Shown here in pieces: positions 47,141-64,000 of a stretch of DNA of 64,000 nt. The stretch is taken from contig CAIVEI010000141.1 in the NCBI GenBank assembly GCA_903904835.1, positions 21,472 through 85,471 of the forward strand, written 5' to 3'. The position numbers and the translations under genes are program-made. Every line of letters starts with the position of its first letter. Position 1 is the stretch's first letter. Source of the DNA: an uncultured Schlesneria sp. Its GTDB lineage: Bacteria > Planctomycetota > Planctomycetia > Planctomycetales > Planctomycetaceae. The notes beneath the pieces were generated by a model that saw nothing but the letters and a program-made list of their open reading frames with translations, was not told where the DNA came from and made no database searches.

Positions 47141-47146
47141 GTTCCC

Positions 47147-48421
47147 TCAATCAAGACGTAACCAGATTGACTTCAAATATTCAGACTCGGGGCAATTCGT
47201 GGATATCGGGTGGTCGGGGGCGGCACCACCTTTGGCGATGATCTGGCCTCGACGTCCCACTTCCGGTGCCGCGTTCACGATTTTAGTGAATTCGGCCATG
47301 TCGAGCAGTCCCGAACAACTGCATGTCAGTAATATTCCACCGGGATTCACCAGTTGCATCGCCAACCGGTTCATGTCGAAGTATTTATGCCGCCCCTCTT
47401 CGATTTCCATGCGGCTGCGGATCAATTTTGGCGGGTCCAGCACCACCACATCGAACTTCTTTTTATTACGTTGCATGTCCCGCATGTAACCGAACACTTC
47501 GGCCTGCACGAAATTGATTTTCAGTTGGTTGAGGTTCGCGTTTTCTCGAGCAAGTACAACAGTGTCTTCATCGAGTTCCACCCCGGTCACTTCGCTTGCC
47601 TGACCAATTCGTTTCGCCTGCAGCGAAAAACCGCCGGTATAGCAACAGAGGTCGAGGACCGTTTTCCCGGCACAAAAGTCGGCGAACCGCCTGCGGTTAT
47701 CCCGCTGGTCGCAATAAAAACCAGTCTTATGGCCACCAGCAAAGTTGATGCGGAACTTGGTGCCGTATTCCTGAACGATCGTCTTGGCAGGGACTTCCGC
47801 CGAACCGTAAGGATCGGCTGCAAAACCCTCATGTTCATGCGACATCGGTGCCGCCCGCAGAACTCCGTGTTTCGTTCCAGCCAAGACTTCGAGTTGACTG
47901 ATGATCGCTTCGGCTCGCTGATACATACCCAGCGAAAAGCACTCAGCCACCAGAACATCGCCAAACCGATCAACAACCAGTCCTGGAAGGCCATCCGCCT
48001 CGGCATGAATCAGTCGATAGGCCTGTGAAACATCGTCGAGTTTTAGAGTCTCTCGGCGCAACGAAACTGCTTGAGCCAGCCGGTCGCTCCACCACACTTC
48101 GTCCGGTGGTTTCAAGCCGGCACGAAGCACTCTGACGGCAATTTCGGCCTCAGGATTAAAAAGTCCAAACCCAACCGTTTCACCGCTGGGAGCATTCAAT
48201 TCGACCAGATCACCCGGCTGAGCATCACGGGAAATCTGGCCGAGCTGTTTGCGAAAGACGAAAGGATGCCAAAGTGCACCCCCCAGACGGACTTCGACTT
48301 GAGGGAGTCGTTCGCCTTCAGGAGGACACAATGGGCGTTGTTCAAGCAATTCGCGGCGGACCCGGACTGGCTGACGGGACGTTTCGTAACGTCGAGACGA
48401 TGATTGTGGTTTGCGGTTCAT
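47147..48421 (-). CDS. RlmI-like class I SAM-dependent 23S rRNA methyltransferase, copy 1
   Basis: VLDLCCYTGGFSLQAKR SAM motif; FDVVVLDPPKLIRSRMEIEEG; N-terminal PUA-like region. Confidence 0.9.
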   Translation of the reverse strand: MNRKPQSSSRRYETSRQPVRVRRELLEQRPLCPPEGERLPQVEVRLGGALWHPFVFRKQLGQISRDAQPGDLVELNAPSGETVGFGLFNPEAEIAVRVLRAGLKPPDEVWWSDRLAQAVSLRRETLKLDDVSQAYRLIHAEADGLPGLVVDRFGDVLVAECFSLGMYQRAEAIISQLEVLAGTKHGVLRAAPMSHEHEGFAADPYGSAEVPAKTIVQEYGTKFRINFAGGHKTGFYCDQRDNRRRFADFCAGKTVLDLCCYTGGFSLQAKRIGQASEVTGVELDEDTVVLARENANLNQLKINFVQAEVFGYMRDMQRNKKKFDVVVLDPPKLIRSRMEIEEGRHKYFDMNRLAMQLVNPGGILLTCSCSGLLDMAEFTKIVNAAPEVGRRGQIIAKGGAAPDHPISTNCPESEYLKSIWLRLD

Positions 48422-48592: not shown

Positions 48593-48688
48593 GTCGAACG
48601 TTCCAGATCACGGGCCCTGTGGGCGCGGGAGCTGCGAACTCCAGAAAACCTACGTGCCCGCCGGGTCCGGTGCAGCGCCTGGTTCGGC
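48593..48688 (-). other. attC-like integron recombination site (attC-1)
   Basis: Minus strand GGCCGAACCAGGCGCTGCACCGGACCC ... GGGCCCGTGATCTGGAACG^TTCGAC; immediately 3' of the 48699-49163 gene. Confidence 0.75.
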
Positions 48689-48698
48689 CTCCGGCCAG

Positions 48699-49163
48699 TC
48701 ACTTCGCCTCGACTGAGTCTTGTGTCCCGACCGTCTTCAGGTTGCACGCCAGGATGACCTGCCCTTTCAGGTCGCTGTTCGCGCGCTCGCGCAGTTCCAG
48801 CGTGCCGGTCTTTGCGTCAACTGTGGCCTCGATCTTGCCTGCCGCCCACGACTCTGCGAACAGGCTACGGTGGAAAACGCCCTTTTTGTCCGGGGCGTAG
48901 ATGCCGATCCATGCGTGTGGCACGCCGTCGCCGAGGAAGTCGCAGACTCCAACCCAGAATGTGACCCCCGCGTACTCGTGCTTGGTAAACTTCACGCCGT
49001 TCGAGGCAGCAATCCTTTCCTTCGTCAGTTGAGCCGGAAGGAACAGGTCCTCGAAGCGTGACGGCTTCTCGTTCTCGAGAGCCGCGCTCGCCGTCCCGGC
49101 CGTGACGGCAACGCCGGCCGCAACGCCGGAACGAATCATCTGACGCCGTGTGATCTTGGACAT
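48699..49163 (-). CDS. Cassette gene: secreted hypothetical protein with RR-type signal
   Basis: MSKITRRQMIRSGVAAGVAVTAGTASAA; flanked by attC-like sites on both sides. Confidence 0.65.
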   Translation of the reverse strand: MSKITRRQMIRSGVAAGVAVTAGTASAALENEKPSRFEDLFLPAQLTKERIAASNGVKFTKHEYAGVTFWVGVCDFLGDGVPHAWIGIYAPDKKGVFHRSLFAESWAAGKIEATVDAKTGTLELRERANSDLKGQVILACNLKTVGTQDSVEAK

Positions 49164-49184
49164 GCGACACCTCCGATTCTAGCC

Positions 49185-49239
49185 CGCGAACGTAAAAGAT
49201 CAGCCGGTGTACTCACTCAACGGGACCGGGTTGCTGGGC
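49185..49239 (-). other. attC-like site (attC-2, short type)
   Basis: Minus strand GCCCAGCAACCCGGTCCCGTTGAGTGAGTACACCGGCTGATCTTTTACG^TTCGCG; aligns with the sites at 55009 and 61912. Confidence 0.65.
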
Positions 49240-49404
49240 ATTAATTGGTTGCAAACGTATTGGTGGAAATGAAACGACCTTGCGGCCGCCTGTCTTCTGC
49301 CGTTCCCTTGCATCCTCAATCATGGCCTGCAAGTCGTAGTTGAACTGACTTGCCAAGGCCTCTCGTGCCTGTCGCACTTCAGCAACGATCGTGTCAATCG
49401 CCAT
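49213..49404 (-). CDS. Putative antitoxin partner of PIN protein (module 1)
   Basis: MAIDTIVAEVRQAREALASQFNYDLQAMIEDARERQKTGGRKV; 3 nt downstream of the PIN ORF. Confidence 0.6.
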   Translation of the reverse strand: MAIDTIVAEVRQAREALASQFNYDLQAMIEDARERQKTGGRKVVSFPPIRLQPINAQQPGPVE

Positions 49405-49407
49405 GTG

Positions 49408-49869
49408 TTATTCCTTTAGCAGTTCTTCGGATGTGCAAATGACTGGTGGTTGGTAGCCGAAGCCTCGAATAACCTCATCAATATTGAAACGAAGTTCTGC
49501 ATTCGCGATGTGTGTGCAGTTCCAAGTCAGCAAGTACTGCATGCCGTTGACTGTTGCAATGGCGATGTGGAGCGAATCAGATGCGGCCTTGGGTGGCAAC
49601 GGTACACGCTTCATCAATTCAGCCGCGAGCGGTTGAACATCGTCACTTGGGTCGAGCAAAGGTATGTCCGCCAAAAAGTCCAACCGGCGTTTTGCCGCAT
49701 CGGGGTCACCCGCACTTGCCTCATCGATTACGAATTGCGATACGAACACGTCAAAGTCTTGCCGCCGCGATTCCCACCATTCACGAGTCATTTGTTGATG
49801 ACTTGCCATGACGAGATCTCGGCTAGCCCATGCGGTCAGGTAACTCGGAACCGTTGTCTCCAAATACAC
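49408..49869 (-). CDS. PIN-domain toxin-like protein (module 1)
   Basis: MYLETTVPSYLTAW...VSQFVIDEASAGDPDAAKRRL...SDSLHIAIATVNGMQYLLTWNCTHIANA. Confidence 0.8.
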   Translation of the reverse strand: MYLETTVPSYLTAWASRDLVMASHQQMTREWWESRRQDFDVFVSQFVIDEASAGDPDAAKRRLDFLADIPLLDPSDDVQPLAAELMKRVPLPPKAASDSLHIAIATVNGMQYLLTWNCTHIANAELRFNIDEVIRGFGYQPPVICTSEELLKE

Positions 49870-50162
49870 GCGTGGCTTTATTGCAATTCAGACTTCGCCG
49901 TAACCGACTCAACAACAAAAGGGAATCGTGACCACCGCAGATTAGTATACGCAAACCACAGAAAACCGCCACGAATTCGCTCGAAGACGTGCCGCATACA
50001 GGCTAACATGCAGCCAACCGTTTGAGATCTACCGGTTTCGCCAGCAAACACGTCTGCGCTCGTCCTCGTTGCGGGTATTACAAGCCAACTTCTTGGCAAT
50101 TTCAGCCGCAATTCTTAGCGATTCGTCGATTGGTGCCCGTGAAAAAGCGGTGTCACCGCGGT

Positions 50163-50338
50163 CTCAGCCACCAGAACATCGCCAAACCGATCAACAACGA
50201 GTCCTGGAAGGCGATCCGCCTCGGCATGAATCAGTCGATAGGCCTGTGAAACATCGTCGAGTTTTAGAGTCTCTCGGCGCAACGAAACTGCTTGAGCCAG
50301 CCGGTCGCTCCACCACACTTCATCCGGTGGTTTCAAGC
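50163..50338 (-). pseudogene. 176-bp internal fragment of the rlmI-like gene (copy 3)
   Basis: Nearly identical to 47942-48117 (only a few mismatches seen by eye); homology ends at the antitoxin stop codon at 50338-50340. Confidence 0.9.
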
Positions 50339-50565
50339 TAAGGGATTAATGGAGCCGTCGCGACAGAGCTTCCTTCAGATTGCGGCCGACCGTCGGATTC
50401 GGTGGAATCCTTTGATCGTTGCTTGCCCTGCCAAATCGGTCTACCAGATTTTTCCAATCTGGATTGCGCATCACTGAGATAAGCGAGTGTATCGCCGTTC
50501 CAATCCGCTAGGATTTTGCGTCTTGCAGCATGAAGTTCGTCCAATACCGGGTTTTGTGTGCTCAT
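50338..50565 (-). CDS. Putative antitoxin partner of PIN protein (module 2)
   Basis: MSTQNPVLDELHAARRKILADWNGDTLAYLSDAQSRLEKSGRPI; overlaps the PIN ORF end by 4 nt. Confidence 0.55.
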   Translation of the reverse strand: MSTQNPVLDELHAARRKILADWNGDTLAYLSDAQSRLEKSGRPIWQGKQRSKDSTESDGRPQSEGSSVATAPLIP

Positions 50566-51035
50566 ATTCCAACGAAAAATTCTATGGGTGCACAAACCAA
50601 CATCCCGGAAAGTCCAAGTTCTTGAAGCAGTTTGTAAATGCGAGGCAACTCAGTTGCGTTGGCGATGTGCGTACAATTCTGCGTCAGCAAGTATTGTACT
50701 CCGGCGAGTGCAGCCGTGGCAACATGTAATGCATCCAACCTCGCGCTTGGTGGCATCATGTGCCGCCGAATGATTTCATCGGCGACTGAATCGACATCTG
50801 GATTGGCGGGTAAAACAGGTATCCTGTCCAACGCTGCCAGTCTTCGTCTGGCCGCATCAGGATCGCCAAGCGACGCTTCGTCAATCACAAGTTGAGAGGT
50901 AACCACCTCATAATGTGGCCTTTGCTCCGTAAGCCAACGTTTCGCCTGCTGTTGCAAAGCGAGTGTTGTCGGGTCGCTGCTCGGTCTTGCCGTTGCATGG
51001 CTGATCACAGATGTTTCGATGTAGTCGAGATCCAT
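50562..51035 (-). CDS. PIN-domain toxin-like protein (module 2)
   Basis: MDLDYIETSVISHATARPSSD...TSQLVIDEASLGDPDAARRRLAALDRIPVL...LDALHVATAALAGVQYLLTQNCTHIANA. Confidence 0.75.
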   Translation of the reverse strand: MDLDYIETSVISHATARPSSDPTTLALQQQAKRWLTEQRPHYEVVTSQLVIDEASLGDPDAARRRLAALDRIPVLPANPDVDSVADEIIRRHMMPPSARLDALHVATAALAGVQYLLTQNCTHIANATELPRIYKLLQELGLSGMLVCAPIEFFVGI

Positions 51036-51326
51036 GTTAGCATTCTTTGGCAACGAACGCTGGCCATCACCCTGCACGCGCGAGAGACGCCACCATTTTG
51101 AAACGCCCGATCGCATGCTCGGGTGCATGGCTTGATTCTGACATTTTAACGGCTTGGTTCATGAATTGTCGCGTCTCGGGGGACACCGCTTTTTTGCCAA
51201 AAGGCTATGTACCTATTGGTGGTGAGCTGATCCGAATGACGCGATTTCTGTTGGGGCAATTGATCGCCTTGAGAATGATGCTTTTCCCTGTAGAATCGAA
51301 TCGAGATTACTAGAACGCTACGAGGG

Positions 51327-53273
51327 TTGGACTTTATGATCGTGCCAAACGAAAGCTCCAGACCCTCAGTAAAAGCGATTCTTGTCTCCTTTCTATTGGC
51401 TCTGCTCACATTCCTCACCTTCAGCCGGGTTTTATGGAGTTCGTTTGTCGATCTGGACGACCCAAGGTACGTCACACAGAATGAGTTTGTCGGCCAAGGT
51501 CTCTGCGTCGCCAGTATTGGATACGCCTTCACCACATTTGACATGGGAAATTGGATTCCTGTGACGTGGATGTCGTATCTGACGGATGCACAACTATTCG
51601 GAATCAATTCGACCGCGTTCCACGCCACCAACCTCGGATTCCACATCGCAAATGTTCTGATATTTTTTTTCTTGCTCCAAAGGGTAACAAAGGCGTTATG
51701 GCGTAGTGCGGTGGTGGCTGCCCTATTCGCAGTGCATCCATTGCACGTCGAATCGATTGCATGGGTTTCCGAACGTAAAGATGTCCTCAGCGGGTTCTGG
51801 CTGCTGGTCACGCTCTTTGCCTACGCACGATACTGTCAGAATCTCGACCGCTGGCGATACCTGCTTGTCGTCATGTGCTTCGTTACAGGCTTGCTGGCAA
51901 AACCGATGCTGGTGACGGTCCCCATCCTGTTGTTGTTGCTGGACGTGTGGCCCCTGGGACGATCAGGAGCCCCTTCACTCGATCGTCATCCGTCGTTTGC
52001 TGTCATCAAGAGAACCGGCCATGAACTGCTGTGGGAGAAGATCCCTTTGCTTATCATTTCGCTGGTCGACGGAGTGATTTCTTTTGCGAGTCAATCGTCG
52101 GTTCATGCCATCAGCGATCTCAGTCAACTCTCTGTGCAACAGAGGATCGAAAATGGAACGATCGCCGTCGCCTGGTATGTGTGCAAAACATTCTGCCCGA
52201 TTAATCTGTGCGCGTTCTATCTTCGCTCAAACGACGCCCCGACATGGCACGCAGTGGCGACCTCAGCCGCGATCTTGTTTGCGATTTCTTTGGTTGTGAC
52301 CCTGTACGGAGGGACTCGAAAGTATTTGATGGTTGGCTAGTGGTGGTTCGTCTTGAGCCTGCTACCTGTCATTGGATTGATTCAAGTGGGGTCCCAAGCG
52401 TATGCCGATCGCTATAGCTATGTACCTCATATCGGACTTCTCACGATGATTGTTTGGGGCGTGGCCGACCAAGTGGAAGCTCGACCAATTCGACGGTCAG
52501 TGGCGATACGTCTTGCTGCTGTCTCCATCATGTTCTGTGCTGTCGCATCCTGTCGTCAGACGGCTTATTGGCAAAACTCCGAAGCCTTATGGCAACGAGT
52601 GCTCTCGATTGAGCCGGATAATGACTTTGCACATTATCACATCGGAACGCTCAGACAATTTGACGGGCGGTTGGATGAGGCGCTGGTCCATTTCAATTAC
52701 TTGCTGACGAAACACAGAAACAACCCTGACCTGCTGAACAACATTGGCTTGATCCATCAGCAGCGACAGGAAGACAAGGATGCAGAAGAATTCTTTCGAG
52801 CAGCCTTGCGCGCGAATCCACGACATCCGATCGCGCAGAAAAATCTTTCGTCGTTGCTCGGTTCAAAAAGGGCGGCCAGAGCTGCGACGCAAAAAACGGA
52901 GATCGCGATCGAGGCGTTGCAAAAAAATGAAACCGGTATGAACCATGCTCGCAATGGTAAATTGCAACTCGCGCTCGATTCATTTACAGACGCCATCAGC
53001 GCCAGTCCACAGTTTGTGGATGCGTACATCAATTGTGCTTTGACTCTGGCGCAGCTTGGAAAGACCTCCGAATCAAAAGCGCGTTTGGAACAAGCGATCG
53101 CAATCGATCCAGAGAACTTCGTGGCAAATCTGAATCTTGCGGCGCTCCTCGAATTCGAAGGCGATCTGAATGGTGCCAGACGTCATTTCGAGGCAGCGCG
53201 CGATGCAAGTCCTGATGACGTTGAAGTGCACAACCGGTTGCGTTCTCTGCAACAACGGTTCCCGGAACGATAG
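51327..53273 (+). pseudogene. Multi-pass membrane protein with C-terminal TPRs, interrupted by an in-frame TAG
   Basis: ORFs 51327..52340 and 52353..53273 share one frame; TAG at 52338-52340 in YLMVG*WWFVLSLLPVIGLIQVGSQAYADRYSYVPHIGL. Confidence 0.75.
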
Positions 53274-53476
53274 CGGTTCGATCATGGATGACAGCCGAAC
53301 GGCCCAAAGTCTTTGAACTCCTCCTGTAGCTGACCCAACGGGATCATTGCTGAGGAATGCTCCATGCCAATTATATCATTTTTGCCACGGGTTGCGGCGG
53401 CGTGACACACCACTTTCGAAGGAACGAAACGCGAATCAGAGGTCAAATCCAGTCGTAATGGTTTTGTGAAAATGCG

Positions 53477-53674
53477 TTACATCAGTACGGAAAGAGCAAG
53501 CGCGCGAAGTATTTCCGCACCTTTGACTGACGCTTGAATCATTTCCTGCTGGTCATCCGGATGCCGCGGCCAACCGACGCCATTGGTGCGTCCGCCCCAA
53601 TAGGCGAGGCGAAAGCGCCGACAGGTCTCGTCCAGTTCAGCCGCACATTCGTGCCATCTCGCGCGTTGCCACAT
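53477..53674 (-). CDS. Possible small cassette ORF, hypothetical
   Basis: 65-aa ORF in cassette orientation next to the attC site at 53714; weak evidence. Confidence 0.3.
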   Translation of the reverse strand: MWQRARWHECAAELDETCRRFRLAYWGGRTNGVGWPRHPDDQQEMIQASVKGAEILRALALSVLM

Positions 53675-53713
53675 TCAGGTCATTCTTCGACGCATTACCT
53701 TTTGTCGCCGATC

Positions 53714-53803
53714 GCCGAACGTCAAAGGTAACCGGGCCGCCGCCAAAAACGAGGATACCAAACCCCGCGTCATCGGCGGCTCCGGTTCACCGTTTTGTTA
53801 TGC
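53714..53803 (-). other. attC-like site (attC-3)
   Basis: Minus strand GCATAACAAAACGGTGAACCGGAGCCGCC ... GGCGGCGGCCCGGTTACCTTTGACG^TTCGGC; paired arms with extrahelical bases. Confidence 0.85.
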
Positions 53804-54308
53804 CTTCATCTTTGAAGCGATCATCTTGAATATGCGTATTCGGCGGTAATGGAATACGATTCAGATCGATGACATTCCCATCAACAACAAGCACCAAAAT
53901 TGTCTTGCTGGCAGGCATCGAAGACTTGTCGGCCTCTTTTCCATCTGAGTTTGTGGAAACAAAAGGATGTGAGTTGATCAGAACTCCAGCCTTGATTGTG
54001 GCCCCCTGCCGAGCCCCAGTCCCAATGTACGGAGATCGGATAAGAAAGAGGGGAGTTTCCGGGCTCTTGACTTTCAGCAAATGTCGCCACGCGGATTCAA
54101 ATGCGTCCCGTTCGGTGAAAGAAATCTCGTAGTGCAGCTGACCTCCCAGGGGACCTTCAATTGTTCGGGAGTTTGCTCGCAGGGGCTCAAGCTCTTTGGG
54201 CCATGTGTCGGGCCATCTGCCTGTATTCTCAATCGAAACGTCGGCGAAAAGGTGGCAGGTCATGGCTGCCAGCAACAATGGCGGTAAAACAGAGACAATT
54301 CGCTTCAT
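53787..54308 (-). CDS. Cassette gene: secreted hypothetical protein
   Basis: Signal peptide MKRIVSVLPPLLLAAMTCHLFA; stop codon lies in the attC site. Confidence 0.65.
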   Translation of the reverse strand: MKRIVSVLPPLLLAAMTCHLFADVSIENTGRWPDTWPKELEPLRANSRTIEGPLGGQLHYEISFTERDAFESAWRHLLKVKSPETPLFLIRSPYIGTGARQGATIKAGVLINSHPFVSTNSDGKEADKSSMPASKTILVLVVDGNVIDLNRIPLPPNTHIQDDRFKDEGITKR

Positions 54309-54390
54309 CTTAATTCTCCGCTATGTGTGAAGGCATCTGTATCCCAAAATGAGACGAAAGTCGTCTGCGTCCGGTTCCAAAGATTCTCAG

Positions 54391-54481
54391 GCATAACGAT
54401 TGAGGTAAGTGGCTGCGGCCACGATAAGGAAAAAAAATACCGTGGCGATTCGCCGCAGTCCACTTGACCGAATAGTTAGGT
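54391..54481 (-). other. attC-like site (attC-4)
   Basis: Minus strand ACCTAACTATTCGGTCAAGTGGACTGCGGCG ... GGCCGCAGCCACTTACCTCAATCG^TTATGC; AAGTGG-CTGCGGC arms pair with extrahelical A. Confidence 0.85.
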
Positions 54482-54970
54482 GGCATTTTCTGGCTTGCGC
54501 CGAGGACGCTGTTTGCTCGAAACCGATTGAATGACTGCATACCCGGCGCCCTTTAAAGGAAGTGGAACCTTGGCTTGTGCGATGGCCGCGTTGATGAGTG
54601 CAAGCACTTGGGGTGAGCGAAGGGTTTTGATAGTAGGCACACGAATGAAACGGTTCTGCTTTCCGCTACCTTGGAGCAACTTATCCGGGTCAGCGAGGCT
54701 GGCACCATGATAGAAAGAAATACCAACTCCGTTTGCTGCGGCTGCGATAGACACAATGCAATCGGAAGCGCGTGGAGTTGTACAGTAGCCGATGACGAAA
54801 AAGTTGAAGTTGTCGTAAACCAACTCGATCGCGTTGGGCATGAGCTTGCGAAGCTCGACGCGACACAGCCGAATGAGCTTGGCGTTGGCGGGTTCGAACT
54901 TGTCGATAAACTCAGCAAGACGTATTTCGATGTTCGAATCAGACGCGGTCGCCAAGGGTGAAGACTTCAT
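54476..54970 (-). CDS. Cassette gene: DUF1801-type protein
   Basis: LCRVELRKLMPNAIELVYDNFNFFVIGYC...GISFYHGASLADPDKLLQGSGKQNRFIRV; stop codon in the attC inverse core. Confidence 0.75.
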   Translation of the reverse strand: MKSSPLATASDSNIEIRLAEFIDKFEPANAKLIRLCRVELRKLMPNAIELVYDNFNFFVIGYCTTPRASDCIVSIAAAANGVGISFYHGASLADPDKLLQGSGKQNRFIRVPTIKTLRSPQVLALINAAIAQAKVPLPLKGAGYAVIQSVSSKQRPRRKPENAT

Positions 54971-55008
54971 GATTCGTGCTCGCAGACTTCGAGACGTTGC
55001 CTATGCCA

Positions 55009-55065
55009 CTTAACGTTAAAGGTCAGCGGATGGTACTCCATTCCGCTGGACCGGCTTGTTCGGCA
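55009..55065 (-). other. attC-like site (attC-5, short type)
   Basis: Minus strand GCCGAACAAGCCGGTCCAGCGGAATGGAGTACCATCCGCTGACCTTTAACG^TTAAGT; near identical to 61912-61968 up to G^TT. Confidence 0.9.
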
Positions 55066-55068
55066 AAT

Positions 55069-55260
55069 TCAAGGCACGCGTTCAATTTGGGGAACCTTGC
55101 GTCGTGGCTTTGGCTCGCGGGACGCAGATTGTCGGTCAGATTCGCTGTGCCGCTTGCGCAAATCATTCATCATCAAGCGGACATCGCCGTTGAATTGTTG
55201 AGCGTATGCTTCACGAACACGCCGAACTTCTGAAAGAATTGGGTCAAGAGTCATAGTCAT
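55069..55260 (-). CDS. Putative antitoxin partner of PIN protein (module 3)
   Basis: MTMTLDPILSEVRRVREAYAQQFNGDVRLMMNDLRKRHSESDRQ; overlaps the PIN ORF end. Confidence 0.6.
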   Translation of the reverse strand: MTMTLDPILSEVRRVREAYAQQFNGDVRLMMNDLRKRHSESDRQSASREPKPRRKVPQIERVP

Positions 55261-55729
55261 CCCCCATGAGTTGATCAGGAGTGCAGATCACAGGCATCGA
55301 AAAACCGAAATCGTCGCATACATCATAAATGATCGGTTGGAATGTTGCATTGGCAATGTGCGTGCAATTCCACGTGAGCAAATAGTCGATGCCGTGAACG
55401 ATGCAGATGGCAATATGAGCCGCATCCATCAATGCACGTGCCGGAAGAGACAGACGATCAATTAGGGTGATCACGATTTCATCAGCGTCGGATAACGGGT
55501 CGAGCACAGGGATTCCGTCGAGAACTTCAAGCCGCCGTTTTGCCGCATGAGGATCGCCTCCGGAAGCTTCGAGTAGGACGGCATCCGAGATGAATAGGTC
55601 AAAGTGTTGACGCCGATCATCCCACCATTGCCGTGTCGTTTGCTGTTTGGCCGCCATCGAGAGTTCAGGACTACGCCAAGCAGTCAGATAGCTGGGAATC
55701 GTTGTTTCGAGGTAGACAGATGACGCCAT
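55244..55729 (-). CDS. PIN-domain toxin-like protein (module 3)
   Basis: VYLETTIPSYLTAWRSPELSMAAKQQTTRQWWDDRRQHFDLF...MDAAHIAICIVHGIDYLLTWNCTHIANA. Confidence 0.8.
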   Translation of the reverse strand: MASSVYLETTIPSYLTAWRSPELSMAAKQQTTRQWWDDRRQHFDLFISDAVLLEASGGDPHAAKRRLEVLDGIPVLDPLSDADEIVITLIDRLSLPARALMDAAHIAICIVHGIDYLLTWNCTHIANATFQPIIYDVCDDFGFSMPVICTPDQLMGDDYDS

Positions 55730-55780
55730 CAGAGTACCAAGCGGAATTGGGAATTGGACGTATAACGATACTTAGGCCGA

Positions 55781-56161
55781 TCATTTGAGGTCCGCCGACG
55801 TTCTGCACGCGGCTCGATCGACTGGTTTGACACTCGTCAACCACGGTACACAAGCCGAGAGCGAAAGACAAATTAATTCATGGATACCGTTTACGAGCCC
55901 CGTTTGAATTGTTCGATCACGTCGCACCGTTTCGATGATGATCGTGCCATCGTCCTGCGTTACCTTGAGCTTGCTGCCGATGCCAACAGCTTCAAGTTCG
56001 TGACCGGAGTTGCCGGAGAGATGAAACTTATCGCCGATGTCGAGCGTGACAAGCGAATACTCCCTGTCGGAAACCATAACGACCTTCTTGTCGATGGTCT
56101 CCTTGGTTTTGATGGAGCCGTACTCCACGTTGATCAGTATTCCCTCTGTAACCTTCGCCAT
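55781..56161 (-). CDS. Cassette gene: hypothetical protein
   Basis: 126-aa ORF starting MAKVTEGILINVEYGSIKTKETIDKKVVMVSDREYSLVTLDIGDKFHLSG right after an attC junction. Confidence 0.55.
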   Translation of the reverse strand: MAKVTEGILINVEYGSIKTKETIDKKVVMVSDREYSLVTLDIGDKFHLSGNSGHELEAVGIGSKLKVTQDDGTIIIETVRRDRTIQTGLVNGIHELICLSLSACVPWLTSVKPVDRAACRTSADLK

Positions 56162-56175
56162 CGTGAACCCCTTCT

Positions 56176-56234
56176 GCCGAACGTGAAATTAACCGGCGGC
56201 GTACTCGCCGTCCGTGTTGAATGTTTCGTTACCC
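56176..56234 (-). other. attC-like site (attC-6)
   Basis: Minus strand ...CATTCAACACGGACGGCGAGTACGCCGCCGGTTAATTTCACG^TTCGGC; same family as attC-7. Confidence 0.8.
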
Positions 56235-56240
56235 GCATTT

Positions 56241-56690
56241 CTAGCATGCGCGTTGGTTAAACACCACACCTTCGACATCGGCAGCCGTAGCAAGGGCTCT
56301 GTCGACCGCAGATCCTAATGCTCGAATTTGGTCGGAGTATCGAGTTCGATGAACGATCCGATGATACCAATCATGGCAAAGTTGAACATCGAATTCGAAG
56401 CAATTCTTGGCGGACCCATCAGGGACCCATTGGACGTACACGAAGCACGTCCAGCCGCCAAGTTTGAAGTACGTATACCAGCCATGGTCTTCAGGGCTTG
56501 GTTCGTCCATTTCGCTGACCATTGCTTGGGATCGCAATGCATTACAGACATTCTTGATCACAGGATCGGTCGCCATGTATTGCCATTGCTCCCCAAAGTC
56601 ACCGGAGAATACCGGTTTCGGGGCGAGTTCAACGTCGTCATCGTCGGGCAAAACACCAGTCCAGTAGAATTTGCCAAAGATTGTAGTCAT
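56241..56690 (-). CDS. Cassette gene: hypothetical protein
   Basis: 149-aa ORF, MTTIFGKFYWTGVLPDDDDVELAPKPVFSGDFGEQWQYMATDP; bracketed by attC-6 and attC-7. Confidence 0.65.
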   Translation of the reverse strand: MTTIFGKFYWTGVLPDDDDVELAPKPVFSGDFGEQWQYMATDPVIKNVCNALRSQAMVSEMDEPSPEDHGWYTYFKLGGWTCFVYVQWVPDGSAKNCFEFDVQLCHDWYHRIVHRTRYSDQIRALGSAVDRALATAADVEGVVFNQRAC

Positions 56691-56723
56691 ACATTTTCGG
56701 CGTAGTCAGTGTCGGTCTTTGTC

Positions 56724-56783
56724 GGGTAACGTCAAAATTAACCGGCGGCGTACTCGCCGTCCGTGTTGAATGCCTTGTTCGGC
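56724..56783 (-). other. attC-like site (attC-7)
   Basis: Minus strand GCCGAACAAGGCATTCAACACGGACGGCGAGTACGCCGCCGGTTAATTTTGACG^TTACCC. Confidence 0.85.
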
Positions 56784-56787
56784 GCCT

Positions 56788-57150
56788 TTATTTCAGGCAT
56801 TTGTTTCTTGTTGTGTGAATGACGGCGCGAAAAGTAGAATGTCCCCTTTGTGTTTTCGCGAACTCGCCGTTGCTGAAGCCTTTGGCAGGATCGTGGCACG
56901 TTGCACAGGCAACTTTATTATCCGCTGACAGGCGGCCATCAAAAAATAACTGCTTTCCCAAAGCAATCTTCTCGTCCGACGGAGGATTGTCCTTCGGGTA
57001 AACAATGGGTGGAAGACCGGCGGGTTCGACGGCAAATGTGACTTCGGACAGTTCACAAACAATTAACGTCATAAAAGCGATCAAACGGATCATCACTAAC
57101 TTCCTTGGGCATCGCGGGTCTTGATCGTTAAAAACCGTTCTCAGTGACAC
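56788..57150 (-). pseudogene. Truncated cytochrome c peroxidase (N-terminal portion only)
   Basis: EPAGLPPIVYPKDNPPSDEKIALGKQLFFDGRLSADNKVACATCHDPAKGFSNGE matches the 46148-47140 protein, then diverges. Confidence 0.85.
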
Positions 57151-57236
57151 GGCATAAAAAGTGAACGCGGTTCGAAGCGACCATTCTTAAGGCTGTTGCT
57201 CTGCCTTTCAAGAGACCGCAAACATTTCAAAAACGA

Positions 57237-58511
57237 TCAATCAAGTCGTAACCAGATCGACTTCAAATATTCAGACTCGGGGCAATTCGTGGAAATTGGG
57301 TGGTCGGGAGCGGCCCCACCCTTCGCGATGATTTGACCTCGACGTCCTACTTCCGGTGCCGCATTCACGATCTTGGTGAATTCAGTCATGTCGAGCAGTC
57401 CCGAGCAACTGCATGTCAGCAATATTCCACCAGGATTCACCAGTTGCATCGCCAGCCGATTCAGGTCGAAGTACTTATGCCGCCCCTCTTCGATTTCCAT
57501 GCGGCTGCGAATCAGTTTCGGTGGGTCCAGGACGACCACATCGAACTTCTTCTTGTTACGTTGCATGTCCCGCATGTAACCGAACACTTCAGCCTGCACG
57601 AAATTGATTTTCAGTTGATTGAGGTTCGCGTTTTCTCGAGCGAGTACAACGGTGTCTTCGTCCAGCTCGACCCCGGTCACTTCGCTGGCCTGACCAATTC
57701 GTTTGGCTTGCAGGGAAAAGCCACCGGTGTAACAGCAGAGATCCAGTACCGATTTCCCGCCACAAAAGTCGGCTAACCGTCTGCGGTTATCCCGCTGGTC
57801 GCAATAAAAGCCGGTCTTATGACCGCCCGCAAAGTTAATACGGAACTTGGTGTCATGCTCCTGAACAATCGTCTTGGCGGGGACTTCCGCAGAACCGTAA
57901 GGATCAGCGGCAAACCCTTCGTGTTCATGCGACATCGGTGCCGCCCGCAGAACTCCGTGTTTCGTTCCTGCCAGGACTTCAAGTTGACTGATAATCGCTT
58001 CGGCTCGTTGATACATGCCAAGCGAAAAACACTCAGCGACCAACACGTCGCCAAATCGATCGACAACGAGACCAGGCAGGCCATCAGCCTCGGCATGAAT
58101 CAGTCGATAAGCCTGCGATACGTCGTCCAGCTTCAACGTCTCGCGCCGCAGTGAAACCGCTTGAGCCAGCCGGTCGCTCCACCATGCTTCATCCGGTGGT
58201 TTTAAGCCGGCACGAAGCACTCTTACGGCAATTTCGGCCTCAGGATTGAATAATCCAAAACCAACCGTTTCACCGCTGGGAGCGTTCAGTTCGACCAGAT
58301 CACCCGGTTGAGCTTCTCGGGAAATCTGGCCAAGTTGTTTTCGAAAGACGAATGGATGCCACAATGCACCACCGAGGCGGACTTCGACTTGAGGGAGTCG
58401 TTCGCCTTCAGGCGGGCACAACGGGCGTTGTTCAAGTAATTCCCGGCAGACACGTACGGGCTGACGGGACGTTTCATAACGCCGAGACGATGATTGTGGT
58501 TTTCGGTTCAT
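57237..58511 (-). CDS. RlmI-like rRNA methyltransferase, copy 2 (inside the attC array)
   Basis: 424-aa protein almost identical to the 47147-48421 product; nucleotide differences mostly synonymous. Confidence 0.9.
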   Translation of the reverse strand: MNRKPQSSSRRYETSRQPVRVCRELLEQRPLCPPEGERLPQVEVRLGGALWHPFVFRKQLGQISREAQPGDLVELNAPSGETVGFGLFNPEAEIAVRVLRAGLKPPDEAWWSDRLAQAVSLRRETLKLDDVSQAYRLIHAEADGLPGLVVDRFGDVLVAECFSLGMYQRAEAIISQLEVLAGTKHGVLRAAPMSHEHEGFAADPYGSAEVPAKTIVQEHDTKFRINFAGGHKTGFYCDQRDNRRRLADFCGGKSVLDLCCYTGGFSLQAKRIGQASEVTGVELDEDTVVLARENANLNQLKINFVQAEVFGYMRDMQRNKKKFDVVVLDPPKLIRSRMEIEEGRHKYFDLNRLAMQLVNPGGILLTCSCSGLLDMTEFTKIVNAAPEVGRRGQIIAKGGAAPDHPISTNCPESEYLKSIWLRLD

Positions 58512-58944
58512 GACGTCATCGTAATGGACCTGTCAATCACTCACAATAAACAAGCCGCGATTCAAGAGCGTCGCCGTTCAAGCGATATCTGCGAGGTAAG
58601 CCATCGGAGTTTTCTCTCGTCTCAATCAACGTTGATCATAAATCGATCAAAACCAGAAGAGACCGTAGGCAGACTCACCATGAACGACCAAGGAGGTTTT
58701 TATTCCCACCACGAAGGACTCAGTGAGGCCTTCGCCCGCAACCCAATCACGGGAAGAATTCGAACCACGAAAAACACGAAAAAACAGTCGAGGCGAGCCG
58801 GGGTGCGTCAGCCCCCGGATTCTTTTCTTCTACAAATTCTTCGCACCGCGCGAAGAAATCAAACGTTAGTACTACGGAGGGGTGATCAATCTTGTTCTCA
58901 TGCATCTCAGTGTCTCCGCGACTCTGTGAGAGATCAATTCTTCG

Positions 58945-59035
58945 ATCGAACGGTCACAATCACCCGGCGGCGGCCAAGTGACTTTGATTTCAGGAAACGC
59001 TCGATCCGCCGCTCGGGTGCATTGTGTTGTTAGCC
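58945..59035 (-). other. attC-like site (attC-8)
   Basis: Minus strand GGCTAACAACACAATGCACCCGAGCGGCGG ... CCGCCGCCGGGTGATTGTGACCG^TTCGAT; CACAAT-CACCCG-CGGCGG arms pair with extrahelical bases. Confidence 0.9.
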
Positions 59036-59530
59036 GTCGGATTCAAGGGTGTAAGGCGGTACAATGTGATGGATCATGAGCATGATGTTCTCATAAGTGC
59101 CCGGTGCGATCTCGGCGATTCGATCGTTTTCGAGCAACATATTGAAGGCAAGAAGGATCGTGCAGATACACTGTTTTCCGATGCATGCGGCTGTAAAGGA
59201 GAACGGGAAAATGATCATTTCTTGATTCGGCGAGATCATCGCGACTTCGTTGATCTCGTCATCAATTACGACATCGGCCCAATACCAATGAAACTGCCGA
59301 GCCATCTGTGCGCCCCAAAGAGCGCCGAGCACAAGGTGCGGATTCTCGTCTTCCGAAACCGATGTCGGTCTCTCAAACACCAAGTCGACCACGGCGTCGT
59401 TCATCTTCTGCATTATGGCTTGAGGTGAATCCGTCTTTAGGTCGATGTCGAATAACGCGGCAGCCTCCCCGATAACAGCCTCAATGAGACCGCGACGTTC
59501 CTGATCTGGCGGTGATTCTTGTACTTTCAT
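59030..59530 (-). CDS. Cassette gene: hypothetical protein
   Basis: MKVQESPPDQERRGLIEAVIGEAAALFDIDLK...; upstream extension of the listed ORF is attC sequence; stop lies in attC-8. Confidence 0.65.
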   Translation of the reverse strand: MKVQESPPDQERRGLIEAVIGEAAALFDIDLKTDSPQAIMQKMNDAVVDLVFERPTSVSEDENPHLVLGALWGAQMARQFHWYWADVVIDDEINEVAMISPNQEMIIFPFSFTAACIGKQCICTILLAFNMLLENDRIAEIAPGTYENIMLMIHHIVPPYTLESDG

Positions 59531-59547
59531 TGTGCGTTTGATTTGAC

Positions 59548-59642
59548 GGCTAACGAATTGCGATCTAACCGGTTGCGGCGAGCGACGCTGTAAAGTGTGA
59601 AAAACAAACCACCGCAACTCGGCGTGCATCGCTTTGTTCGCC
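59548..59642 (-). other. attC-like site (attC-9)
   Basis: Minus strand GGCGAACAAAGCGATGCACGCCGAGTTGCGG ... CCGCAACCGGTTAGATCGCAATTCG^TTAGCC. Confidence 0.85.
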
Positions 59643-59663
59643 ACGATTCCGAAAGGCGGTACG

Positions 59664-60134
59664 CTAACTCCGGGGCTTCACTGGTAGAGACCTCGCGTCG
59701 AGGTTCGTTTTCTTGAATTCCTCAATTTCTTCTTTTGTCTTTTGATCTGTGTAAAAGCCAAGGGTGTCTACCATCCATTTGTTCTTTAACTTCACGAGGT
59801 CGAACACCAAACGCCCCGTGTCTTGGCCATCGGGATTCGGTTCATTGATTTTGACTTCTTCTGTGACAGCAATGGCTCGTCCGTTCTTCTCGCCCATCCA
59901 GATGGTTGGTACTTTGATCTTCTTCACATCAAACATTGTCTTGAAATCTTGTAGCTTGCTACGGGAACTCACTTCCTTGTCCTCGGTGGCCAGCGAGACC
60001 GCTTCATCTAAGTGGCCAGACAGTGCAGCAGCCAAATAGGCTTCAATCGTGGACCTCGGATTGTCGTACGGCTTCTCGTCAGCAAACGCAACGACATTCA
60101 ATCCCAGAGCAATCCCAATGACAATCCATCGCAT
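59664..60134 (-). CDS. Cassette gene: secreted NTF2/DUF4878-like hypothetical protein
   Basis: Signal peptide MRWIVIGIALGLNVVAFA; ARSTIEAYLAAALSGHLDEAVSLATEDKEV-like fold signature. Confidence 0.65.
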   Translation of the reverse strand: MRWIVIGIALGLNVVAFADEKPYDNPRSTIEAYLAAALSGHLDEAVSLATEDKEVSSRSKLQDFKTMFDVKKIKVPTIWMGEKNGRAIAVTEEVKINEPNPDGQDTGRLVFDLVKLKNKWMVDTLGFYTDQKTKEEIEEFKKTNLDARSLPVKPRS

Positions 60135-60154
60135 TGAATTACCTTCGTTGTTGT

Positions 60155-60245
60155 GGCGAAGGACGGCGGTAACCGGTGTTGCCGTAATTGACTTTCCATT
60201 TCAAATCCGCGTGATCGACAACTCCGGTTCACCGCATTGTTCGCT
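60155..60245 (-). other. attC-like site with altered core (attC-10)
   Basis: Minus strand GCGAACAATGCGGTGAACCGGAGTTG ... CAACACCGGTTACCGCCGTCC; strong arms, but the terminal GTT core is not intact. Confidence 0.75.
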
Positions 60246-60392
60246 TTGCGATTCTGCAACTCTGCGATTCGACAGCGTGATCATTTCCGAGTAAAGAGCA
60301 GTGCAGGTGCCTGGTTCGACAGAGGCATTCACATTGCAAGTTCATAGTCATCACGATCCAGGATCAGCATGCGAAAACGGGTTCTCGATACT

Positions 60393-60683
60393 CTATCCTA
60401 GGGCAATCCCCAGGGTACCGATCAGCAGTGGAAGCCACACGAGCCATCGCAATGCGGGGAATCGCTGGCCATCACCTTTCCGGAGTCGGATGAAGCCCCA
60501 CCCGACAACCACGGCACAGACCGGGCCGATCAAAACCGAGCTGAGCATAGCGAGCCCCATTGAATCGATTGGCCCCAGCATCGCGGGAATCGCGTAAATT
60601 GAGCCAATCAACCCAATTGGCAACAGCGACGCAACGAAGTATCCGAAAGGGAATCGCACATCGGGGCCGGAAGCGATCACCAT
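60393..60683 (-). CDS. Cassette gene: small three-TM membrane protein
   Basis: 96-aa ORF between attC sites with TM segments. Confidence 0.5.
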   Translation of the reverse strand: MVIASGPDVRFPFGYFVASLLPIGLIGSIYAIPAMLGPIDSMGLAMLSSVLIGPVCAVVVGWGFIRLRKGDGQRFPALRWLVWLPLLIGTLGIALG

Positions 60684-60699
60684 TGAGCCCTTCTTTGTA

Positions 60700-60789
60700 G
60701 GCGAACGTCAGACATCACGGGGGACGGACGAAAGATCTTCCACTTCAAAACACTCGCAGGCCGACCTCACGTGCATGTCATGGTTCGTT
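60700..60789 (-). other. attC-like site (attC-11)
   Basis: Minus strand GAACGAACCATGACATGCACGTG ... CCCCGTGATGTCTGACG^TTCGCC. Confidence 0.8.
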
Positions 60790-61908
60790 CTTTTTTGCGA
60801 GCTCCGCTTCAATCTGGGCGTCGGTTGGCAGATCGGTCAAGTGCGCAAACACGACCTTGCCATCTCGACCCACCAAAAAATACGCGGGAAATTGAGAAAC
60901 GGCAAACCGCTTTTCCGTTTCGCCGTTGCTCAGTACAACCGGGAATTTAAATTCATGTTCAGCCATAAACTCTGGGAGCTTCTCCGAATTCTGATTCGCA
61001 TGGACACCCACAACGACCAAACCGCGATCCTCAAACCTCTCCTGAAGAACATTGACTGCAGGTAGTTTCTTAACACAAGGCCCGCACCATGTTGCCCAAA
61101 AGTCTACCAGGATGACTTTGCCCTTCAAATCGGCATGACTTGGCATGGGAATGTCGCCCATCGCTCTGCCGTCAATTGTCGGCATATGACTACCAATGAT
61201 TGATTTCTTGGTTTCGGCATTAGAGATCATTGCTCGAGATCCATAGCCGGTTATCCGCTCGGCAACCAGCAGGTCGCCCTCGTCATGGCAGCGTGCTTCC
61301 CCACAGAAGACCTCCGCAAGTTTACCGTCGGCAAACATCATCGATCCGTGTCCCTTCTTCAGCTTTTCGTGTTGGAATCGGATCAGGGTGTCAATGGTAC
61401 ACTTGTCGAACTTCGGTGACGTGCAAACCCAGTACCAGTCGTCTTTCTTTACCACGAACAAGCGACCGGCTGTGCACAGGGTTTCACCCGCCGGTGCTTC
61501 GCCAATCTGATTCCATGTATTACCGCCAAAGTCCTTCATTTCACGGTAGACACGAAGCCGTCCAAGTGATTCACGAATAAACCAGGGGCCGTATTGAATT
61601 TCGAACAAAGGCAACTGCGGATGCACGGAAACTTTTGGCATCGAACCGGGGGTAATCTTCGCAAGAACGATCTTCCACTCCAGTTCGTCCGGCTCCGCAG
61701 TCAATGTTGCCACCAACCAACCGCCCTGATCAGTCAGTTCAAGTCGCTGTTTCGGGATCTCAAGCCCGTCCGCGTTGATCGGTGCAATCTCCTTTGCAAA
61801 GGGTAACGCGGTAACAGATTGTTCTTGGGCAAAAGCAAGCTGGCCAACCGCAGCTACTAAAAACAGGATGGCATAGGACATCAGTCTCCGATTCATTGAA
61901 TCCTCCAT
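60778..61908 (-). CDS. Cassette gene: TlpA-like thioredoxin-fold protein
   Basis: GKVILVDFWATWCGPCVKKLPAVNVLQERFEDRGLVVVGVHANQN; stop codon inside attC-11. Confidence 0.8.
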   Translation of the reverse strand: MEDSMNRRLMSYAILFLVAAVGQLAFAQEQSVTALPFAKEIAPINADGLEIPKQRLELTDQGGWLVATLTAEPDELEWKIVLAKITPGSMPKVSVHPQLPLFEIQYGPWFIRESLGRLRVYREMKDFGGNTWNQIGEAPAGETLCTAGRLFVVKKDDWYWVCTSPKFDKCTIDTLIRFQHEKLKKGHGSMMFADGKLAEVFCGEARCHDEGDLLVAERITGYGSRAMISNAETKKSIIGSHMPTIDGRAMGDIPMPSHADLKGKVILVDFWATWCGPCVKKLPAVNVLQERFEDRGLVVVGVHANQNSEKLPEFMAEHEFKFPVVLSNGETEKRFAVSQFPAYFLVGRDGKVVFAHLTDLPTDAQIEAELAKKNEP

Positions 61909-61911
61909 GTG

Positions 61912-61968
61912 GACGAACGTTAAAGGTCAGCGGATGGTACTCCATTCCGCTGGACCGGCTTGTTCGGC
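61912..61968 (-). other. attC-like site (attC-12, short type)
   Basis: Minus strand GCCGAACAAGCCGGTCCAGCGGAATGGAGTACCATCCGCTGACCTTTAACG^TTCGTC. Confidence 0.9.
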
Positions 61969-62108
61969 GAATTTGGTTTCCACATTGGCCGTCCAGAAGC
62001 TTCTTGCCGTTTTCTTGCATCGTCGAGCATTGCCGCGAAATCGCCGTGAAACTTATTTGAAATTTCACGACGTGTTTGATGAATTTCGTCAATGATCGGA
62101 TCAATCAT
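61920..62108 (-). CDS. Putative antitoxin partner of PIN protein (module 4)
   Basis: MIDPIIDEIHQTRREISNKFHGDFAAMLDDARKRQEASGRPM; C-terminal tail and stop encoded by the attC site. Confidence 0.6.
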   Translation of the reverse strand: MIDPIIDEIHQTRREISNKFHGDFAAMLDDARKRQEASGRPMWKPNSPNKPVQRNGVPSADL

Positions 62109-62589
62109 CAGTTGCTGGATCATCAGCCAACATCTCCTCGCGGGTGCAAATAATGGGAATAGGAATAAAAAGGTCCGTCAGGAACTCGCGAATTCGGGGT
62201 AGTATCTTTGCATTTGCAATCTGACGACAATTCCACGTCAGCAAATATTGTATTCGATGATGGGCCACGATAGCAATATGCAGTGCATCCGTGCGAGCTT
62301 TCGGAGGAAGAATTGCACGTGCCATGATTTCGTCGGCGATCAGCGCAATATCAGGGTCAAGCGGCAACAGAGGAATTCCGTCCAACGATTGAAGGCGTTC
62401 CGCTGCCAGAGTTGCATCTCCCGCCGAGGCTTCGTCAATGACATATTGCGAGATGACCAGATCGTAATTGGCTCGTTCGTAATTCCACCATTGATGCGTG
62501 AGCAATTGACGAGCTGCCATCACAACCTGCGAACTGGCCCGCTGACGAAGATAACTAACGATTGAAGTTTCGATGTAGACCGTATCCAT
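62101..62589 (-). CDS. PIN-domain toxin-like protein (module 4)
   Basis: MDTVYIETSIVSYLRQRASSQVVMAARQLLTHQWWNYERANYDLVISQYVIDEASAGDATLAAERLQSLDGIPLL...DALHIAIVAHHRIQYLLTWNCRQIANA. Confidence 0.8.
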   Translation of the reverse strand: MDTVYIETSIVSYLRQRASSQVVMAARQLLTHQWWNYERANYDLVISQYVIDEASAGDATLAAERLQSLDGIPLLPLDPDIALIADEIMARAILPPKARTDALHIAIVAHHRIQYLLTWNCRQIANAKILPRIREFLTDLFIPIPIICTREEMLADDPATDD

Positions 62590-62675
62590 AGAACACCGAA
62601 TGATAATCCTGTTACGGACCCAGCAGTTTAAACTCAATCGCTGTTTGAAATCCGCCTCTCAATTGTACATCGGGA

Positions 62676-62927
62676 ATGGACTTCCAGGAACGGTGTCGAA
62701 GAATCCGCCGTGTGACGTCACGGATACAGCTTTTGTCGAAGAAGCAGTGTCCCCGGCGTCGTTTGCATTCGCTGCGCCATTCCTTTGCGACTCACTTACT
62801 CGAAACCGGCTCTGACATCCGAACTGTGCAGGATTTATTAGGCCATGCCGATGTCTCAACGACGATGATCTACACGCAAGTGCTTAATCGTTCAGGGCTT
62901 GCTGTTCGTATCCCGCTTTACCGTTAG
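62676..62927 (+). pseudogene. C-terminal remnant of an IntI-like tyrosine recombinase
   Basis: [54 protein letters not shown]: HxxR, GH and Tyr nucleophile boxes; N-terminal domain absent. Confidence 0.8.
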
Positions 62928-63619
62928 CATCGACTTTGTATGAACGAGATGAAAAGCGAGCCGGTTGAATGTTCCAGAAAATGGAGGCATTTGCACGACG
63001 GTATGGCGAGCGGCTGGGTAGTCCCAGTGGCGGGGGTCATCGGGGCTTTGCACCAGCAAAAACAAGCAAGTTATTTCATGCTCTGATCAACAAAAGCACC
63101 GTGGTGGAATTGTGCTTGTGATCCCCTCGCGAAGACTCAGTTCAAGAACACCTTCCAAACGTTAAGAAAATATCTCGATTTTTCTATTGCTTAATGATAA
63201 AGAGTCTTGTGTAATTATGTCGTTGTGTGTGTTGATGACGGCAAGCGTTTCGTGCTCGTTTCACCCGAAGCCAGCGGCGCAGGCGAATCGGCGTTCAGCC
63301 GATTTCTTGCGGACGTCGCTGGGATGGGATTTCGAAGTCACGTATGCGAATGTGGGTTCGGGCTTCGTTCATTGCTCCGAATAACACGCTTCTCTTCGAG
63401 GCGCGGTTAAACGATGCGTTTGGACGATGAGTGGGTCCTGACAAAATACGGGGACAAGAATCCCCGGCTCGCCTGGATTTCCGAAGTCAAAACCTGACGA
63501 CGACAATTGATCTTTGACAATTTGGAATCAATTCATTGCGGATCGCCCCCGCAGGCATCAATCGCTGCGGGCCGATCCGTGGCGGGTCGTTGTTTGCCTT
63601 CAGGTACCCACCGAAATCG

Positions 63620-64000
63620 CCAATGTTGCCTAAGAACTCCCAGAGTTGCCCAAGGCGTTTCATGGTTGCCCAACCAAAGTTGCCTAAGCTCCGCCAGAGT
63701 TGCCTATCAGGGTTGCCCAATCATTTTCAGGCTCGAATTTTGAAAAAGCTCTGGAAATCGCCAGTGTTTCCTAAGAACTCCCATAGTTGCCCATGCTGTT
63801 TCATGGTTGCCCAAGCAGAGTTGCCTAAGTTCCGCCAGTGTTGCCCATCATGGTTGCCCAAACATTTTGAGGCTCGAATTCTGAAAAAGCTCTGGAAATC
63901 GCCAGTGTTTCCTAAGAACTCCCATAGTTGCCCATGCTGTTTCATGGTTGCCCAAGCAGAGTTGCCTAAGTTCCGCCAGTGTTGCCCATCATGGTTGCCC
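63620..64000. repeat. 141-bp tandem repeat continuing past the window end
   Basis: CATTTTSAGGCTCGAATTYTGAAAAAGCTCTGGAAATCGCCAGTGTTTCCTAAGAACTCCCATAGTTGCCCATGCTGTTTCATGG at 63722 and 63863, with partial/diverged copy starting near 63620. Confidence 0.9.

Follow-up and report, generated by a model that had tools for sequence, protein, structure and literature searches.

An integron array in a Schlesneria-like planctomycete holds, between two of its attC sites, a complete rlmI-like methyltransferase gene followed by the beginning of a cytochrome c peroxidase-like gene (ccp), and the same gene pair stands on the chromosome at the edge of that array. How did such a pair become part of a gene cassette, and from which chromosome was it taken? 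The locus was studied in a 64-kb stretch (the window) that forms the rightmost part of the 85-kb contig C141 (C141:21472-85471), so that the window and the contig end together. The source genome, G000 (8.18 Mb in 211 contigs), was compared with the relatives G001, G002, G005, G007, G011, and G012.

The attC sites were searched with a box-and-arm scan controlled by dinucleotide shuffling. Between 48.4 and 62.7 kb, 13 sites with paired R boxes and complementary L arms were found on the minus strand vs. 3 on the plus strand, compared with 1.5 attC-like sites expected on average in shuffles of the same stretch. Two of the 13, one inside rlmI and the other at 55760, look like chance matches, and two more attCs were added by eye. 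The resulting array (48593–61968, minus strand) comprises about 13 same-strand attCs, some of whose ends were also placed by eye: 48593–48688, 49185–49240, 51052–51130 (degenerate), 53709–53803, 54391–54481, 55008–55064, 56176–56234 (attC-6), 56724–56783 (attC-7), 58945–59035 (attC-8), 59548–59642, 60152–60245, 60700–60789, and 61912–61968. Both attC-7 and attC-8 have R''/R' boxes, complementary L arms, and a hairpin, and attC-6 and attC-7 have nearly identical cores. Because the array reads leftward on the minus strand, attC-7 belongs to the cassette with the second rlmI (copy 2), and attC-8 to the preceding one. An Rfam scan of 44–64 kb gave no match. Four related pairs of PIN-type toxin and small antitoxin-like genes are also found in the array (49213–49869, 50338–51128, 55069–55729, and 61920–62637), as is an odd insert of two adjoining ORFs (51327–53273) on the strand opposite to the cassettes, by eye TPR-like and membrane proteins, which are broken by a stop at 52340.

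At the right end of the array, in the canonical place and orientation, lies the C-terminal remnant of an integron integrase (62763–62927, plus strand; 54 aa), which matches positions 261–314 of TIGR02249 (E 1.2e-23) and the Pfam Phage_integrase family. The 5′ part of intI, where attI would adjoin, is missing, and a genome-wide search of G000 found no further intI, that is, no intact integrase gene of a complete integron. With the N-terminus of its integrase gone, the array is orphaned. Among the relatives, G001, G005, and G011 have a full-length intI gene, whereas that of G012 is partial. The contig stops 1.1 kb past the stub, in an assembly of many pieces, and its last bases (63613–64000) are a tandem repeat with a 141-bp unit, about 89% identical.

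The copy-2 cassette measures 2221 bp (56730–58950, minus strand) from the G|TT crossover of attC-8 to that of attC-7, and contains rlmI copy 2, the ccp fragment (ccp′), and a repeat-borne attC described below as the REP-attC unit. Its flanking attCs have one orientation, both being on the minus strand; rlmI and ccp′ lie in the cassette sense on the same strand with the attC at their 3′ side, and the ccp′ stop codon is 4 bp ahead of attC-7. The ORFs, attC boxes, and hairpins thus bore out a preliminary description of this DNA, which had placed a second rlmI-like gene and a truncated ccp between these two sites.

The methyltransferase gene (57237–58511, minus strand) is intact and stop-free, and encodes a class I SAM-dependent RNA methyltransferase of 424 aa. 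Its Pfam match (PF10672/PUA_3) and its DPPK and SCSG motifs place it in the RlmI-like fold family, and phmmer found E. coli YccW/RlmI (3c0k, E 1.6e-65) as the best solved relative. RlmI is the 23S rRNA m5C1962 methyltransferase. The score of copy 2 against the RlmI equivalog model NF053718 (NCBIfam) was 243 bits, below the cut-off of 575, so the product is named RlmI-like only. The truncated ORF ccp′ (56788–57093, minus strand) consists of about 75 ccp codons and about 26 codons that run through the REP linker. It keeps the signal peptide and the first CATCH haem motif of the full-length ccp, a MauG/MbnH-like di-haem gene, and the stump is probably non-functional. Between the two genes lies the ancestral rlmI-ccp spacer (57094–57236, minus strand) with a conserved promoter-like TTGAAA-17-AAGAAT; the conserved genus spacer with this motif was also found at L127 1694–1822. 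Ahead of rlmI, the alignment showed a conserved 74-bp 5′ flank (58512–58585, minus strand) that was carried into the cassette. A weak promoter-like TTGTGA-17-TACGAT, below the motif-scan threshold, may be read in it. Since copy 2 is intact and keeps this flank, its expression without an integron promoter appears plausible. Five private amino-acid changes were counted on the copy-2 branch vs. 3–4 on other branches. As judged from its sequence, copy 2 shows no sign of decay, yet gives no evidence of selection while in the cassette.

The chromosomal rlmI (copy 1; 47147–48421, minus strand) is located at the distal array edge and adjoins an intact ccp/MauG-like di-haem gene (46148–47140, minus strand). 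The order and orientation of the cassette pair are those of 46148–48421, as had been described. The two methyltransferases are 97.6% identical in protein, while their DNA is 88.75% identical over 1360 bp, with a further 238 bp of ccp at 85.7%; this contrast, and the break of ccp′ after GFSNGE, also agreed with the earlier account. The ccp′ sequence matches ccp as far as GFSNGE and then diverges, although the homology may extend 5 nt more (TTCGC) with one codon (CAA) absent. The window contains a third copy as well, absent from that account, a 176-bp rlmI fragment (copy 3; 50163–50338, minus strand) directly after a PIN-type cassette, with 98.3% identity to copy 1 and 84% to copy 2.

That the same gene pair occurs in the same order and orientation 10 kb away had led to the proposal that the cassette was copied, within this lineage, from the array's own flank, and copy 3, a recent local fragment at 98%, shows that local copying occurs. 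However, the dS between copies 1 and 2 was 0.62 (dN 0.0125), as high as that between species, since between-species orthologues of the same clade gave dS values of 0.57–1.03 for rlmI and 0.48–1.06 for the neighbours ccp, DUF480, and radical SAM. The dN/dS of 0.02 agreed with the strong purifying selection that had been suggested for the methyltransferase; this signal mostly reflects its time as an ordinary gene and is not evidence of selection in the cassette. In the tree of rlmI alone, which is star-like, a sister relation of copies 1 and 2 was compatible with the data (p-AU 0.44). In the tree of the whole block (rlmI, spacer, and ccp′), copy 1, G002, and G001 formed a clade that excludes copy 2 with a support of 95/96; joining copies 1 and 2 was rejected by the spacer and ccp′ alone (p-AU 0.0009), and gave a p-AU of 0.052 with the whole block. 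Further, copy 1 and G002 both lack the spacer of about 140 bp, and their deletions have matching ends, whereas the spacer is present in copy 2, G005, G001, and the outgroups. A local duplication that made copy 2 from copy 1 is therefore very unlikely.

Site patterns conflict across the block, which suggests recombination. Inside the trio of copy 1, G001, and G002, the ccp tree pairs copy 1 with G001, while the spacer deletion pairs copy 1 with G002. This mismatch points to recombination among relatives, and neither of the two signals joins copy 1 with copy 2.

The species-level divergence, the trees, and the unshared spacer deletion indicate that copy 2 most likely came from a related lineage. 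On the available sequences, the cassette was probably made from a relative's chromosomal rlmI-ccp pair, and not as a copy of G000's own flank. The earlier suggestion that a chromosomal gene had been captured as a cassette was thus upheld in its cassette anatomy and in its origin from an rlmI-ccp pair, but not in the source of that pair. The position of copy 2 outside the trio would also be expected if an old duplication had predated the split of G000, G001, and G002, with the second copy lost in the other species, and no donor closer than about 89% in nucleotides is known for copy 2. Such a duplication needs losses in at least G001 and G002, while each relative has a single full rlmI and these two genomes are 99% complete; the arrays are fragmented in the relatives' assemblies, so hidden second copies are possible. 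We consider this history unlikely.

The origin from a relative's chromosome was then considered in view of the array edges of the relatives. The chromosomal block rlmI-ccp-DUF480-radical SAM, which is also present in the window, is preceded in G002 by an array with several attCs, whose end lies about 370 bp away. In G001, about 100 bp separate rlmI from the end of a PIN-type cassette, with the array immediately upstream, and the G005 contig breaks off about 420 bp ahead of rlmI. Accordingly, the array naturally has rlmI-ccp as its nearest chromosomal neighbour, as shown for copy 1 and G002, and bracketing this pair takes only one new downstream attC. The start of the copy-2 segment (attC-8, then TTCGATCGAAGAATTG) resembles the last attC ahead of rlmI in G002 and its next bases, and the terminal structure of attC-8 resembles that of this same attC (L126 6690–6770), while G001 retains AATCGAAGAATTGG ahead of rlmI. 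As the TTCGATCGAAGAATTG element is also found behind other attCs in G002, the shared edge is supportive rather than decisive. The rlmI of G001 was tried as a second cassette case and rejected: its ccp stands at the start of contig C225 together with a repeat that is also found at the end of the contig bearing rlmI, and by this arrangement the two genes are probably merely split by an insertion.

The array also bears a sign of exchange between species. The body of the PIN-type toxin-antitoxin-like cassette at 50342–51057 (minus strand; ORFs 50562–51128 and 50338–50595) is 98.9% identical to the last cassette ahead of rlmI in G001 (L125 5746–6463), whereas the chromosomes are about 88% alike. 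The homology begins exactly at the G|TT crossover, the preceding attCs differ between G000 and G001, and the cassette's own attC is missing in both. Downstream of it lies the rlmI fragment copy 3 in the window and the whole rlmI in G001. As far as these sequences tell, this cassette is a recent exchange between species, and cassettes do move here. The occurrence of the cassette beside rlmI in G001 and beside the rlmI fragment in G000 suggests edge exchange as well, and together with the likeness of attC-8 and the segment start to the edge of G002 it favours a different route, in which a relative's [attC-8, rlmI, ccp′] was pasted in by homologous or illegitimate recombination and never formed an IntI circle. 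The ccp/REP junction, with TTCGC and the missing CAA, is indeed not a clean attC crossover. Such a transfer leaves unexplained why the piece ends exactly in a correctly oriented attC unit, and we regard it as improbable.

The unit at which ccp ends was then characterized. The REP-attC unit (56724–56857, minus strand; about 130 bp) is composed of a RAYT-type REP half (GAAAACACAAAGGGGACATTCTACTTTT), a conserved spacer of about 35 bp, and attC-7; the 75 bp ahead of attC-7 open with the half-REP, and the unit starts where ccp ends. The REP motif was found 65–90 bp before Y1_Tnp (RAYT) genes at G001:C3, G002:C250, G000:C21, and G007:C20, so the repeat does flank this transposase gene. Five Schlesneria genomes have REP-attC units at about 8–11 further places, where they follow different genes; the loci beyond the window are L169, L187, L175, L182, L172, L200, L195, L184, L171, and L147. 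Compared with shuffled controls, all three parts scored better in 6 units and REP plus attC in 8, while REP is weak in 3. In other sampled genera of the family, the REP part but no full REP-attC unit was found. At G001:C58 and G005:C59, inspection of the sequence showed that the unit starts within the 5′ half of an older attC. No empty site for the unit was found at G001:C58, G005:C104, or G000:C82, of which the first is a replaced multi-gene region beside a chromosomal GNAT gene, and the other two are without a usable relative. The region at G001:C58 (L221 1554–6592) contains about 5 kb of cassette-like genes, TIR-domain-like and others by eye, up to the REP-attC unit and then GNAT; G002 and G000 differ there.

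The ccp break fits an insertion of the REP-attC unit into ccp, and an off-target IntI event or illegitimate joining would also be possible. The break reads G|TTCGC, and the uninterrupted ccp site G|CA. A GNT motif was reported for IntI secondary sites (PMC10127599). IntI insertion at a secondary site in ccp was considered in this light: G|CA is not GNT, and the REP edge would account for the break equally well. The precise joining in ccp appears compatible with the REP edge, with an IntI G|TT crossover, and with illegitimate joining. More generally, REP-attC units might be mobile, with a single-strand transposase of the Y1/RAYT type scattering an attC-ending repeat of about 130 bp, so that genes up to a neighbouring attC become cassettes, a proposal which we put forward tentatively and hold to be rather doubtful. 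If true, copy 2 would be such a cassette, in which the source gene pair, the broken neighbour, and the inserted attC are all recognisable.

The preferred origin, from a relative's chromosomal pair, may be outlined as follows. As the integron lies directly upstream of rlmI in this clade, the chromosomal genes past the last attC begin with rlmI and ccp. In a donor lineage that would have branched between G005 and the group of G000, G001, and G002, the attC on a REP-attC unit would have come to sit in ccp at about codon 75. The rlmI gene and the ccp stump, bracketed by two attCs of the same orientation, would then have formed an excisable cassette. The cassette, or the array edge bearing it, would have been transferred to the G000 lineage and joined its array. 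With its native 5′ flank brought along, copy 2 may be expressed and supply a redundant rRNA methyltransferase. Integrase loss, of which the C-terminal stub is the observed part, would since have frozen the array. Whether the arrangement could instead be an assembly or binning artefact, with the rlmI-ccp contig of a co-occurring strain joined at a repeat, was also weighed, because the genome is fragmented (211 contigs) and the array contigs are rich in repeats. The left join has a single long repeat, the 38-bp attC core, and the ccp break lies about 80 bp off, where ccp meets REP in a unique junction; the right join is likewise unique, and the estimated contamination of G000 is 0.97%. Thus, an artefact is highly improbable.

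These results bear on how new gene cassettes arise, which has been listed among the outstanding questions about integrons (PMC8618304). In the present case, a cassette gene can be traced back to an array-edge pair in living relatives, and the closing attC is part of a repeated unit, so copy 2 may record how an ordinary chromosomal gene turns into a movable cassette. Two hypotheses are thereby made testable, that cassettes are readily drawn from genes at the array edge, and that they are created by attCs carried on repeats. The group IIC-attC intron model is another model for joining attCs to genes. It is cited in PMC8946536. Neither the ORF list nor Pfam pointed to an intron or a reverse-transcriptase gene at the cassette, and the native flank and the truncated second gene would speak against an mRNA-derived cassette.

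In comparison with known systems, the array resembles sedentary chromosomal integrons in its attC hairpins of one orientation, mostly sense cassettes, toxin-antitoxin-like cassettes, and canonical intI orientation. Some cassettes are known to have two ORFs or their own promoters (PMC8618304). Unlike usual integron cassettes, however, the one described here combines a core chromosomal gene, the stump of a neighbouring gene, and the native 5′ flank in an array with an integrase stub, and its source position, the array edge in relatives, is visible. Without a functional intI in the genome, the G000 array is like a CALIN (cluster of attC sites lacking an integrase), but the intI remnant in its canonical place and orientation marks it as a decayed complete integron. 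The left edge of the REP-attC unit is the repeat just upstream of the Y1_Tnp genes of the genus, as in REP/RAYT systems (TnpA-REP, Y1 HUH), and the other strand of the REP part contains GTAG, a tetranucleotide described in PMC8266576. In contrast to REP/RAYT elements, a single half-REP is fixed about 35 bp from an attC, a composite that was not found in the literature searched. The cassette belongs to a known type, with an origin that can be traced unusually well, while what could be new here is the REP-attC unit.
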